Assembly: GCA_903952205.1 (NCBI GenBank)
Contig: CAJBEZ010000092.1
Location: 1-35,395, forward strand
Direction: 5' to 3'
DNA from: an uncultured Desulfomonile sp.
GTDB lineage: Bacteria; Desulfobacterota; Desulfomonilia; Desulfomonilales; Desulfomonilaceae
DNA length: 35,395 nucleotides
Of the stretch, positions 1 through 11,558 are shown piece by piece. Position 1 is the first letter of the stretch; each line of letters opens with the position of its first letter. The notes beneath the pieces were generated by a model. That model ran no database searches and was not told where the DNA came from. It worked only from the letters and a program-made list of their open reading frames with translations. The position numbers were made by a program, and so were the translations under genes.

Positions 1-345
1 TGCGTCGTCAGCAAAATCAGCCTTTCCTCCTGCCGCCCTTACCTTTTCTTTCAGTTTATCCCTGTAGTCGACAGCTTTCCTGATGAGAAGCAAGAATCTA
101 TCATCATCAAAATCTACATTTGTTAGAGTTGAAAAAAGAGCCTCATTGATGAACACGCCGATTTCCCTGTCAACAACGCCAACTTTTGCGGCTTCCACTG
201 TAAATAGGGCCAGTCCTTTAATCGCATGCATCAGAAGATCCTGAAGAGCAGCGGTTTCCGGCTGTTTTCCACATACGCCGACTCTAGTGCATCCTGTTCC
301 GCCGGCGGCTTGTTCACACTGATAACAAAACATTTTCTCAGCCAT
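1..345 (-). CDS. hcp: Hybrid-cluster protein / hydroxylamine reductase (N-terminal part, cut by window edge)
   Basis: Only the first 115 codons are present; the gene runs out of the window at base 1. The translation begins MAEKMFCYQCEQAAGG and carries C7, C10, C19 and C25. This Cys-X2-Cys-X8-Cys-X5-Cys spacing matches the N-terminal [4Fe-4S] site of class I Hcp from strict anaerobes. Hcp is a cytoplasmic protein with a hybrid Fe-S-O cluster, active as hydroxylamine reductase in vitro and linked to nitric oxide detoxification and protein S-nitrosylation. The ATG at 345 is preceded by AGGAGG (351-356) with a 5-base spacer, which fixes the start. A 16-bp palindrome and a candidate promoter lie upstream, and an HcpR-like regulator gene is nearby. 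No stop codon or frameshift is seen in the visible part. The hybrid-cluster ligands lie outside the window and cannot be checked. Confidence 0.95.
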   Translation of the reverse strand, partial: MAEKMFCYQCEQAAGGTGCTRVGVCGKQPETAALQDLLMHAIKGLALFTVEAAKVGVVDREIGVFINEALFSTLTNVDFDDDRFLLLIRKAVDYRDKLKEKVRAAGGKADFADDA

Positions 346-446: not shown

Positions 447-462
447 CTTGACTTAAGTCAAG
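447..462. promoter_or_regulatory. Perfect 16-bp palindrome, probable Crp/Fnr-family (HcpR-type) operator
   Basis: CTTGACTTAAGTCAAG reads the same on both strands. Its core TTGAC-N4-GTCAA has the half-site TTGA recognised by Fnr-family proteins that carry E-x-x-S-R in the recognition helix. The regulator encoded at 1587-2273 has exactly that motif. The site is just upstream of the hcp -35 element. An 8-base direct repeat, TCAAGACC, occurs at 440-447 and 458-465 and partly overlaps it. The rest of the 346-659 gap holds no gene that I can support. Confidence 0.7.
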
Positions 463-659: not shown

Positions 660-1469
660 TTAGGAATTAACGTGAAGAATTATCTGCTCAAGTTCTCCGA
701 TACCTACTCTTTCCAGGATTTCACCAAAGCGCTCACCCTTTAAACTTTCTTTCATGTAAAAATCGAGAAACTTGTCGACAACATCAAGTATATTCTGTTC
801 AGATAATACACCACCAACTTCAGTGGCCAGTCGTGGGTGTCTCCCCAACTTTCCACCAATCATGATTCGATATCCTTCCAAGGCGCGTTTGAGCGAATCG
901 GTGGGACAAACTTTTACGCAATTGCCGCAGTACAAGCACTTATCCATGTTAAGTTCCGGTCTGATCATATCATCGGTCAGCGTGATGGCGTTTTCCATGC
1001 AGATTTCAGAACAAACTCCACAATGGCTGCATTCGGAGTCGCTAAAACTTGGAACAACCGCCGCAATTATGCCGAGATCACATACCTGAGGCCTAGAACA
1101 GGCGTTGGGACAGTCCGAGATTGAAACCCTGAATTCGTGATGAAATTTAAGAGGGCCTTTGACAACTGCTTTAAGGAATGTTTTTATATCTTTTTTCTTC
1201 AATATCTGCTCTACCATATCAGGAAAACCATTGCTGGAGGGGATACGGTTGGGGCAACCGCTAGAGCCGAAACAGTTTTCGAGTTGATAACCCTTGATCT
1301 CATCTTCCATGTTTTTGAGGAAATTCTGCCGGCATGTTCTCACAAGATCTAACGAGACTTCAGTTGCCATTTGTCTCGCGGCTTCTTCTTCGACCTTTCT
1401 GCGGACTCTTCCCCTCACAAAGAACGGTACCTTCGAAAGCGCTTCTTCGGCCTTCTTACTCCAACGCAT
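660..1469 (-). CDS. Siroheme/[4Fe-4S] sulfite/nitrite reductase-like protein with PCP_red-like N-terminus and two ferredoxin clusters
   Basis: A 269-residue cytoplasmic redox protein. Residues 1-55 (MRWSKKAEEALSKVPFFVR...) resemble the PCP_red domain of light-independent protochlorophyllide reductase. C66-X5-C72 and C120-X3-C124 form the paired motif that ligates the coupled [4Fe-4S]-siroheme centre of sulfite and nitrite reductases. Residues 147-157 (C147, C150, C153, C157) and 178-188 (C178, C181, C184, C188) are two CxxCxxCxxxC ferredoxin sites. It is far smaller than DsrA, DsrB or assimilatory sulfite reductase, so it is a minimal member of the superfamily. Its substrate is unknown: nitrite, sulfite, hydroxylamine or NO chemistry are all possible, as is pure electron transfer. 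It lies between hcp and the divergent HcpR-like regulator, which suggests nitrogen-oxide stress. Domain calls are confident; function is inference. Confidence 0.8.
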   Translation of the reverse strand: MRWSKKAEEALSKVPFFVRGRVRRKVEEEAARQMATEVSLDLVRTCRQNFLKNMEDEIKGYQLENCFGSSGCPNRIPSSNGFPDMVEQILKKKDIKTFLKAVVKGPLKFHHEFRVSISDCPNACSRPQVCDLGIIAAVVPSFSDSECSHCGVCSEICMENAITLTDDMIRPELNMDKCLYCGNCVKVCPTDSLKRALEGYRIMIGGKLGRHPRLATEVGGVLSEQNILDVVDKFLDFYMKESLKGERFGEILERVGIGELEQIILHVNS

Positions 1470-1586: not shown

Positions 1587-2273
1587 ATGTTGGATCCTGT
1601 CAAGGCCTTTCAAAAGATCCCTCTCTTCGAAGGTCTTCCAGACACCCAGTTATTGGATCTGGCCTCAATAGCCGTGGAAAAGTCCTACAAGAAAGGCTCT
1701 ACAATCTTTTCTGAAGGAGACGTCGGCAATGGATTTTATGTAGTGAAAGATGGGAGAGTGAAAATCTTCAAGATTTCTAGCGAGGGCAAAGAACAGATTC
1801 TACATGTGTTTGATTCAGGGGAACCTTTTGGGGAAGCGCCAGTGTTCGAAGGCCGAAAATTTCCGGCTCACGCTGAAGCCCTCGTTGAGAGTGTCTGCAT
1901 ATTCTTTCCGAGAAATGCGTTTTTTGAGTTGATCAGTAAGAATCCCTCTCTTGCAATGAATATGCTTGGTGTTCTATCCAGGCGTCTCAGGAGATTTACG
2001 GCATTAGTTGATGATCTATCGCTCAAAGAGGTTCCGGGCAGGTTAGCCGCCTACCTTATTTACTTAAGCGAAACTGGACATCATCCCACAGAACTTTCTC
2101 TTGATGTTGGAAAAGCTCAATTAGCAGGAATGCTGGGAACAATTCCCGAAACGTTGTCCAGAATTCTTGGAAGACTTGTAAAACTGGGATACATAAAAGT
2201 ACTGGGCCCAAAAATCAGGATCATCAATCGAGAAGGACTGCAGGAATTGGCTGATGGTTCGAGGCGTCTTTGA
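1587..2273 (+). CDS. Crp/Fnr-family transcriptional regulator, probable HcpR
   Basis: From the ATG at 1587 the product is 228 residues. That ATG has GAGGA (1578-1582) at good distance; a TTG at 1536 is an alternative without a ribosome site. An N-terminal cyclic-nucleotide-binding-like beta roll (about 5-120, beginning KAFQKIPLFEGL) is followed by the dimerisation helix and a C-terminal winged helix. The recognition helix contains E188-T-L-S191-R192, the E-x-x-S-R signature that reads TTGA half-sites in Fnr. No N-terminal Cys cluster for an iron-sulfur sensor is present, so it is not a classical Fnr. In sulfate reducers the Crp/Fnr protein next to hcp is HcpR, a heme/NO-responsive regulator. 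The palindrome at 447-462 fits its expected site. Family is certain; the HcpR assignment rests on context. Confidence 0.85.
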   Translation: MLDPVKAFQKIPLFEGLPDTQLLDLASIAVEKSYKKGSTIFSEGDVGNGFYVVKDGRVKIFKISSEGKEQILHVFDSGEPFGEAPVFEGRKFPAHAEALVESVCIFFPRNAFFELISKNPSLAMNMLGVLSRRLRRFTALVDDLSLKEVPGRLAAYLIYLSETGHHPTELSLDVGKAQLAGMLGTIPETLSRILGRLVKLGYIKVLGPKIRIINREGLQELADGSRRL

Positions 2274-10475: not shown

Positions 10476-11558
10476 ATGGAACGTGAAATGATGAGTTCAA
10501 TATTAGAATATTCACTCGCTAGTTTGTTTCTTTTTATCTTCTTGGGCGCAATCGCAAACGCTTCGCCGAATTATAACAAGGCAACCTTTGCCGGTGGCTG
10601 TTTCTGGTGCATGCAGCCACCGTTTGAAAAACTTGACGGAGTTCTCAGCGTGCTTTGCGGCTATACAGGGGGTACAGAACAAGACCCAACTTATGAAGAT
10701 TACGGTGAAAAGGGGCACATAGAATCAATAGAAATAATTTATGATCCTGCCAGGATCTCCTATTCACAACTGCTCGACGTTTTCTGGAGACAGGTAGACC
10801 CAACCGATCAGGGAGGTCAGTTTGTGGATAGGGGACACCATTACAGATCAGCAATATTCTACCACGACGAAAACCAGAAGCAGGCGGCGGAAGATTCAAA
10901 AAGAGAACTTGAGAAGTCCGGTCGATATCAAAAACCAATAGTGACTGACATAATCGAAGCTACAGAGTTCTACAAGGCTGAAGACTATCATCAGGATTAC
11001 CATACAACCAATCCTCTCAGGTACACCTTGTATAGGACACACGCGGGAAGAGACCAATACCTGAAAAAGGTATGGGGACAGACCGGGGAATCCCGCAACG
11101 AAGCGCCAAAGGATGAAAAGACTACAAAACCGATTGTGTCTGAACTCAAAGAAAAGTTGACTCCATTGCAGTTCAATGTCACTCAGGAGGACGGAACCGA
11201 ACCCGCTTTTCAGAATGAATATTGGGACAACAAGAAAGAAGGAATATACGTTGATGTCATTTCCGGTGAACCTTTATTCAGTTCTCTTGACAAGTTCGAT
11301 TCAGGGACTGGTTGGCCGAGCTTTACGAAGCCGATAGATCCCGGAAGTATTCGTGAAAAGACTGACAAAAACTTTTTTATGACACGCGTCGAAGTAAGAA
11401 GCAAAGAAACTGATTCACACTTGGGGCACGTCTTCAATGATGGCCCCGGACCGACAGGAATGCGCTACTGCATAAACTCTGCGGCCCTACGTTTCATTCC
11501 CAAAAATGATCTTGAAAAAGAAGGCTACGGTCAATACATGAAGCTCTTTGAAAAATGA
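10476..11558 (+). CDS. msrAB: Periplasmic methionine sulfoxide reductase MsrA-MsrB fusion
   Basis: A 360-residue bifunctional repair enzyme. A hydrophobic N-terminus ([16 protein letters not shown]) predicts export. The MsrA domain (about 33-205) has the catalytic G-C42-F-W-C45 motif and reduces S-methionine sulfoxide. The MsrB domain (about 225-350) has [18 protein letters not shown] and R-Y-C332-I-N-S with the catalytic Cys, and reduces the R epimer. The two CxxC pairs that bind zinc in many MsrB proteins are absent; the first is replaced by VISGEPLF. Start choice is uncertain among ATG 10476, 10488 and 10491 because none has a strong ribosome site. It lies 79 bases after the VIT-vWA gene on the same strand. 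Both encode exported proteins and may respond to envelope oxidative stress. Confidence 0.93.

Follow-up and report, generated by a model that had tools for sequence, protein, structure and literature searches.

The gene described here lies near the left end of a contig of an uncultured Desulfomonile sp., and the stretch of DNA analysed (the window, 35,395 nucleotides) is this entire contig. The genes and features at the locus are collected in Table 1. The open reading frame of the 269-residue protein begins with ATG and has GGAG ahead of the start, a homolog of 80% identity occurs in a congeneric genome, and 424 candidate stretches in GTDB contigs encode relatives; therefore, it is a real gene. 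In the Pfam search, PCP_red matched with E 1.2e-13 (51.3 bits versus a curated cut-off of 32.5), NIR_SIR with E 1.5e-18, and a Fer4 pair at about residues 144-193, which bears out the domain composition that an earlier note on this DNA had read from the letters, namely a PCP_red-like domain, a siroheme-cluster motif and two [4Fe-4S] ferredoxin sites. Neither a flavin or NADH domain nor a nitrogenase component 1-like body was among the Pfam matches of the protein, and the BchB models TIGR01278 and NF002789 scored far below their cut-offs and covered residues 1-49 only. The PCP_red match is the sole one in its own genome.

Table 1. Genes and sequence features at the left end of the window.
Feature	Position	Strand	Evidence or remark
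hcp, first 115 aa, cut by the contig end; N-terminal CX2C-X8-C-X5-C	1..345	-	TIGR01703
HcpR-type box without mismatch, TTGACTTAAGTCAA, in the gap that separates hcp from the gene, some 100 bp ahead of the hcp start	448..461	.	
PCP_red + half sulfite reductase (NIR_SIR) protein with inserted 2x[4Fe-4S] ferredoxin, 269 aa	660..1469	-	
NIR_SIR 4Fe-4S half-domain, residues 58-262, split by the ferredoxin insert	684..1298	-	Pfam (aligned 110-262) and structure
2x[4Fe-4S] ferredoxin insert with 8 cysteines, approximately residues 143-196	882..1043	-	Pfam and alignment
C120-X3-C124, second half of the cluster motif	1098..1112	-	Invariant in 78/78
C66-X5-C72, first half of the cluster motif	1254..1274	-	Invariant in 78/78
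PCP_red domain (residues 3-46) with the same fold as the C-terminal domain of BchB (2kru)	1332..1463	-	Pfam and structure
CRP/FNR-family regulator, HcpR-like, divergent from the gene	1587..2273	+	Pfam; ATG at 1587, TTG at 1536 also open

The left neighbour is the start of hcp (TIGR01703, E 2.8e-32), and its N-terminal cysteines follow the CX2C-X7/8-C-X5-C pattern of class I Hcp proteins, to which it putatively belongs. Class I Hcp proteins are about 540-560 aa in full length, and the hcp of a near relative (L055) encodes 545 aa. A search for hcp in the remaining genome gave no match at 1e-50, with three of five candidates scored, so the remainder of the gene was probably lost in the assembly gap. 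The divergent regulator on the right has CRP/FNR domains and the recognition helix TIPETLSRIL, which, set by eye against E. coli CRP, presumably places Pro-Glu at CRP positions 180-181. According to PMC1274295, Ser or Pro replaces CRP Arg180 in HcpR while E181 is kept. In keeping with the earlier note, the gene lies between hcp and a CRP/FNR-family regulator that is putatively HcpR-like.

The best 80 of the 424 relative-encoding stretches (L055-L134, 45-80% identity) were fetched, which together with the window gives a set of 81 loci, wherein gene calling recovered 80 of the 81 targets (L117 missed). They come mostly from MAGs named Deltaproteobacteria, Desulfobacteraceae, Desulfobacterales and similar, with Desulfacinum hydrothermale and D. 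infernum as cultured hosts, and full-length members at 37-38% identity are present in the same class. The alignment comprises 78 members, i.e. the window and 77 of the fetched loci, leaving out L074 and L130, whose match begins at residue 3, and the truncated L124. All 78 carry both PCP_red and NIR_SIR by Pfam and keep the CX5C-Xn-CX3C siroheme-cluster motif, the window protein included, and all 12 cysteines (C66, C72, C120, C124 and the eight of the ferredoxin) are invariant.

Sulfite reductase units consist of two parts, NIR_SIR_ferr and NIR_SIR. At a Pfam threshold of E 0.01, NIR_SIR_ferr was found in 0/78 family members and in none of six scanned out of 12 PCP_red-less half proteins, whereas it was present in 25/25 two-part controls, of which 5 came from the survey of relatives and 20 were hand-picked from the phylum genome survey, and three (L025, L027 and L028) have identical Pfam scores and may be near-identical. 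The siroheme sulfite and nitrite reductases are described as having three or four sulfite-binding Arg or Lys residues (PMC3448663); for Fsr, PMC10229431 names Arg355, Arg423, Lys460 and Lys462, with Arg388 as an assimilatory trait and Cys472 as the bridge between cluster and siroheme. Arg355 and Arg388 precede Fsr residue 418 and hence fall within the missing half. In an alignment anchored on the cysteines, the position of Arg423 is occupied by Tyr, Phe, His or Trp in 78/78 members and that of Lys460 by Glu in 77/78, while that of Lys462 holds Arg (Arg114) in 76/78, so that the family keeps at most one, Lys462 to Arg114, of the four sulfite ligands of Fsr. By comparison, alignment blocks of the two-part controls, read by eye, retain Arg, Lys and Lys in 25/25, and in the DsrB-like controls the Arg sits in RVPTAC or RVPIAC. 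Around the cluster, C124 (the equivalent of Fsr Cys472) and N122 are invariant and Q128 occurs in 77/78 members. The Arg is likewise found in 0/12 of the PCP_red-less half proteins (199-232 aa), some of which keep one or both Lys, and in 0/10 of more distant relatives (8 divergent PCP_red or similar forms and 2 f41 forms).

In the AlphaFold model of the window protein (pLDDT 89.5, pTM 0.78), residues 58-269 correspond to Fsr 418-617 (7np8; Z 16.7, rmsd 3.3, 193 residues), and 2kru, a structure of PCP_red, is matched by residues 1-57 (Z 9.3, rmsd 4.6). Foldseek alignments to Fsr were longer than those of VIA (234-265 columns), but with rmsd 4.6-6.4. The closest known systems are group III Dsr-LP, AsrC and the C-terminal unit of Fsr, with which the family has in common the 4Fe-4S half-domain, the position of the ferredoxin insert and the CX5C...CX3C motif, but from which it differs in lacking the NIR_SIR_ferr half and in the added PCP_red. 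The fold of the 4Fe-4S half-domain is also shared with IspG (GcpE; 3noy versus the model: Z 9.8, 93 aligned residues, rmsd 2.1). IspG, which includes a TIM barrel, is not known to bind siroheme or to carry an inserted ferredoxin. The PCP_red part resembles the C-terminal domain of BchB (2kru, 3aek) in sequence (residues 1-47) and in fold (residues 1-57); however, the family has no nitrogenase-like body, its PCP_red is N-terminal rather than C-terminal, and, unlike for BchB, no photosynthetic context was seen around family members.

In a FastTree phylogeny of 59 proteins rooted on DsrB-like proteins, the half proteins form one clade (support 0.91 without the f41 pair, 0.82 with it) that joins the two-part proteins L187-L189 at a support of 0.999. 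The joining of the half clade to two-part proteins in the DsrB-rooted tree suggests that the half form arose from a two-part protein and is not primitive. A single monophyletic group of PCP_red forms is unsupported, as the proteins with PCP_red do not fall together in one clade.

Over the 81 loci, hcp was found in 34, a zinc-ribbon-like protein in 32, an FrdX-like 2x[4Fe-4S] protein in 29, a CRP/FNR regulator in 21, a DUF2400 gene in 12, a cupin in 9 and a flavodiiron protein (FDP) in 9, all of these counts being lower bounds, as many loci end near the gene. FeoA and LysR accompany it in 8 loci (FeoB in 7 of them) and a heavy-metal P-type ATPase in 5, one member of each setting having been scanned. 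hcp is the commonest redox-enzyme neighbour among those looked for, and in 24/81 loci it follows the family gene in the same orientation at a distance of at most 350 bp. The Pfam matches of the zinc-ribbon-like neighbour were below cut-off, with a weak HD-domain match in one member. At the level of the phylum, 395 Desulfobacterota genomes were surveyed and 72 full-length members were taken from the matches listed, leaving out short or broken ones; the position of hcp could be taken from the matches listed for 50 of the 72, and hcp lay within 5 kb of the family gene in 25 of these 50 genomes and elsewhere in the other 25. The chance expectation for such proximity is well under 1%, because the genomes measure 2-6 Mb and mostly have a single hcp. 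One member with only 37% identity (G019) is 60 bp from hcp. Genome-wide, hcp occurs in 64/72 genomes with a member versus 211/323 without (Fisher p 5.5e-5), which is weak evidence, because the genomes are related and hcp is common. The phylum survey and the GTDB loci overlap (e.g. G005:C121 and L057), hence the two are not independent.

Several other settings were seen. In L086, L095, L104 and others, some of them named Desulfobulbaceae, the gene follows LysR and in most also feoA-feoB. Beyond these, some of the group have genes for cytochrome bd-like or multihaem cytochromes upstream; in several, an HcpR-type box with one mismatch precedes the gene by about 70 bp. PCP_red-less half sulfite reductases of 207-220 aa adjoin uvrA, identified by eye, in L166, L167 and L168, and in L167 an FrdX-like gene stands between the two. 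Beside another half sulfite reductase, L172:4979-5869 encodes a membrane protein of 296 aa that matches DUF1858 above cut-off and, weakly and below cut-off, COX1 and ScdA_N. It is adjoined by a zinc-ribbon gene and is a possible further nitrosative-stress neighbour.

For non-Desulfovibrio delta-proteobacteria, PMC1274295 gives the HcpR consensus wyTTGACnnnnGTCAArw, and the delta-proteobacterial HcpR-type box sought here was TTGACnnnnGTCAA, to which FNR/DNR-type boxes are similar. Among loci with at least 150 bp upstream, the 300 bp ahead of the gene contain a candidate box with at most one mismatch in 50/78, 26 of them exact, although the loci are related and the counts are not independent; by 60%-identity clusters, 7/10 groups have one. 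With our own gene calls, it precedes 48/77 family genes (same minimum upstream length) versus 29/382 other genes with a gap of at least 60 bp (Fisher p 5.5e-25). The boxes occur in 17/31 loci with hcp and in 33/47 without it. Of the neighbours, hcp itself is preceded by a candidate box in 30/31 cases, the divergent CRP gene in 10/19 and the DUF2400 gene in 6/12 (the latter two share a gap), the zinc-ribbon gene in 8/32 and the FrdX-like gene in 1/26, and none was found before the cupin, FDP, FeoA, FeoB or LysR genes. In a scan that required at least 120 bp upstream and included 60 bp past the first start codon, two-part relatives had 0/25, PCP_red-less half proteins 0/12, divergent forms 0/8 and f41 forms 0/2; in L167, a box with one mismatch stands some 60 bp ahead of the FrdX-like gene that the PCP_red-less half gene follows. 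Upstream of the window gene and of its near relatives L055-L057 there is nothing better than two mismatches (L055 offers 219 bp; L058, with only 50 bp, too little to judge), and the exact box there precedes hcp only. The motif thus lends support to a predicted co-regulation of most of the family, not of the window's own copy.

In 25 of 26 target-hcp gaps, hcp is preceded by a separate box (20 exact, 5 with one mismatch). The gene and hcp therefore appear to be co-regulated neighbours and not clearly one operon, and a single operon of the two is doubtful. The link to nitrogen-oxide handling suggested in the earlier note is favoured by the hcp adjacency together with the HcpR-type boxes. Its expectation that family members elsewhere would be linked to hcp or HcpR had a mixed outcome: 47/81 loci show no hcp in the locus DNA, of which 33 do carry a candidate box with at most one mismatch, whereas 14 carry neither.

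Based on these observations, we propose that the family protein could be a three-cluster electron-transfer protein of the HcpR nitrosative-stress module, most plausibly feeding class I Hcp, a reading to which we give about an even chance and which agrees with the second of the two roles offered in the earlier note, electron donor to Hcp. First, a group III Dsr-like protein would have lost its NIR_SIR_ferr half, including two active-site arginines, and the derived half protein would have retained the [4Fe-4S] half-domain with the inserted two-cluster ferredoxin, carrying the PCP_red helical domain instead. Electrons could then be taken up by the ferredoxin clusters, move on to the cluster that once faced siroheme and be handed over to another protein, most plausibly class I Hcp, which would turn NO into N2O. 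Since NIR_SIR_ferr and the sulfite ligands are gone while the cluster cysteines are kept, a chain of three [4Fe-4S] clusters is the simplest model, in which we infer the clusters to be filled and siroheme to be absent; the placement in NO defence follows from the candidate boxes and the neighbours. Hcp would be the protein served, with electrons flowing towards it. According to PMC10210160, the electron donor of class I Hcp is unknown, and in PMC12915319 knockdown of frdX, the hcp neighbour in Clostridioides difficile, is reported to cause NO sensitivity; from this gap and this phenotype a carrier towards Hcp is proposed.

Two known proteins frame this proposal. Hcr is an NADH-dependent Hcp reductase and resembles the proposed role in that electrons go to Hcp; however, it is described as serving class II Hcp by NADH oxidation (PMC10210160), for which the family has no flavin or NADH domain. 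FrdX of the HcpR regulon is, like the family, an Fe-S protein tied to hcp and HcpR (as reported in PMC1274295 and PMC12915319), but the FrdX-like genes, a name assigned here from domains and position, have 2x Fer4 and neither NIR_SIR nor PCP_red. The family is not a stand-in for FrdX, since an FrdX-like gene accompanies it in 29/81 loci, 22 of them also with hcp, and for the same reason it is not the sole candidate donor. A more specific form of the proposal, that a half sulfite reductase with no catalysis of its own is the dedicated class I Hcp reductase in Desulfobacterota, or, bolder, that PCP_red and the half domain form a new tetrapyrrole-[4Fe-4S] site turning over a nitrogen oxide, is put forward tentatively and is on the whole rather doubtful.

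One alternative is catalytic. As a tetrapyrrole-[4Fe-4S] enzyme, the protein would use PCP_red in place of the missing half, as a lid over a siroheme or heme precursor held in a dimer and reduce NO, nitrite or hydroxylamine. The conservation of C124, N122 and Q128 around the bridging position is consistent with such a site; Fsr is described as having composite sites across two protomers (PMC13381448), and several VIA rows align residues from 17, inside PCP_red, with E. coli SiRHP from 114. PCP_red also recurs on tetrapyrrole-handling proteins: it is carried by 62 of 198 genomes of the window's phylum, where outside the family it occurs at the C-terminus of radical SAM proteins, on universal stress proteins and in short frames, and besides BchB the radical SAM proteins are of this kind, their best NCBIfam models being AhbD (heme b synthase) or NirJ2 in 5/5 scanned, although below the curated cut-off. 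This distribution suggests, at the level of sequence, a tetrapyrrole connection, but the fusions to universal stress proteins and the short frames weaken PCP_red as proof of tetrapyrrole chemistry. In addition, the half with Arg355 and Arg388 is gone and Arg423 and Lys460 are lost, and PCP_red-less forms persist beside hcp or FrdX-like genes (L167, L171), so a PCP_red lid is not required. Therefore, we regard a tetrapyrrole enzyme as unlikely.

Among the PCP_red proteins outside the family, an ORF ending in PCP_red adjoins a radical SAM-type protein also ending in PCP_red in L140, L141, L142, L143 and L163; in L140 and L142, the former encodes a universal stress protein, and the radical SAM partners are nearest AhbD or NirJ2 where scanned. 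At G209:C71:49589-50299, three consecutive PCP_red matches lie in one open frame of 525 aa.

The neighbourhoods also admit two non-catalytic roles other than the proposed transfer of electrons to Hcp. The protein may serve as a sensor, scaffold or repair protein for NO-damaged Fe-S clusters, acting through exposed sacrificial or transferable clusters, with which the candidate HcpR-type boxes and the FeoAB iron uptake and metal ATPase genes among the neighbours beyond hcp are in keeping; yet no repair or scaffold family was among its Pfam matches or the best 25 of 90 further family matches, and twelve invariant cysteines in ferredoxin and sulfite reductase-type motifs resemble electron wiring, which makes this role quite unlikely. 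It may instead be an electron carrier of a wider redox stress, flavodiiron, metal or oxygen, with hcp as one client among several. The genomes in which hcp lies elsewhere (25/50) and the FDP (9/81 loci), FeoA-LysR (8) and metal ATPase (5) settings point that way, but the frequency of the box (50/78) and the rank of hcp as commonest neighbour (34/81) put nitrosative stress first, and we hold the wider role to be just as improbable as that in repair. Finally, the protein could be a minimal siroheme reductase of the canonical kind, acting on sulfite or nitrite, which the earlier note had offered in calling it a siroheme-type enzyme. This reading accounts for the retained CX5C/CX3C motif, but is discarded as extremely improbable, since the NIR_SIR_ferr half is absent from all 78 members, the sulfite Arg is replaced by an aromatic residue or His in all of them and the first Lys by Glu in 77, while both the half and the Arg are present in 25/25 two-part controls.

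With the electron-transfer reading in the foreground, the family provides, in bacteria of the sulfate-reducing type, a conserved and often apparently co-regulated neighbour of hcp, and thus a concrete, testable candidate. It exemplifies how a sulfite reductase unit could be halved and put to new use with its sulfite site gone. The family also ties PCP_red, a domain that is poorly understood, to nitrosative stress, in bacteria that show no sign of photosynthesis here. The parts of the protein were already known; their combination, a half sulfite reductase with PCP_red under HcpR-type control, was not found in the literature searched, from whose coverage most subscription papers fall out, and is new to that extent.

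Elsewhere in the window, positions 10476-11558 encode a protein of 360 aa in which methionine sulfoxide reductases A and B are fused, with PMSR and SelR domains.
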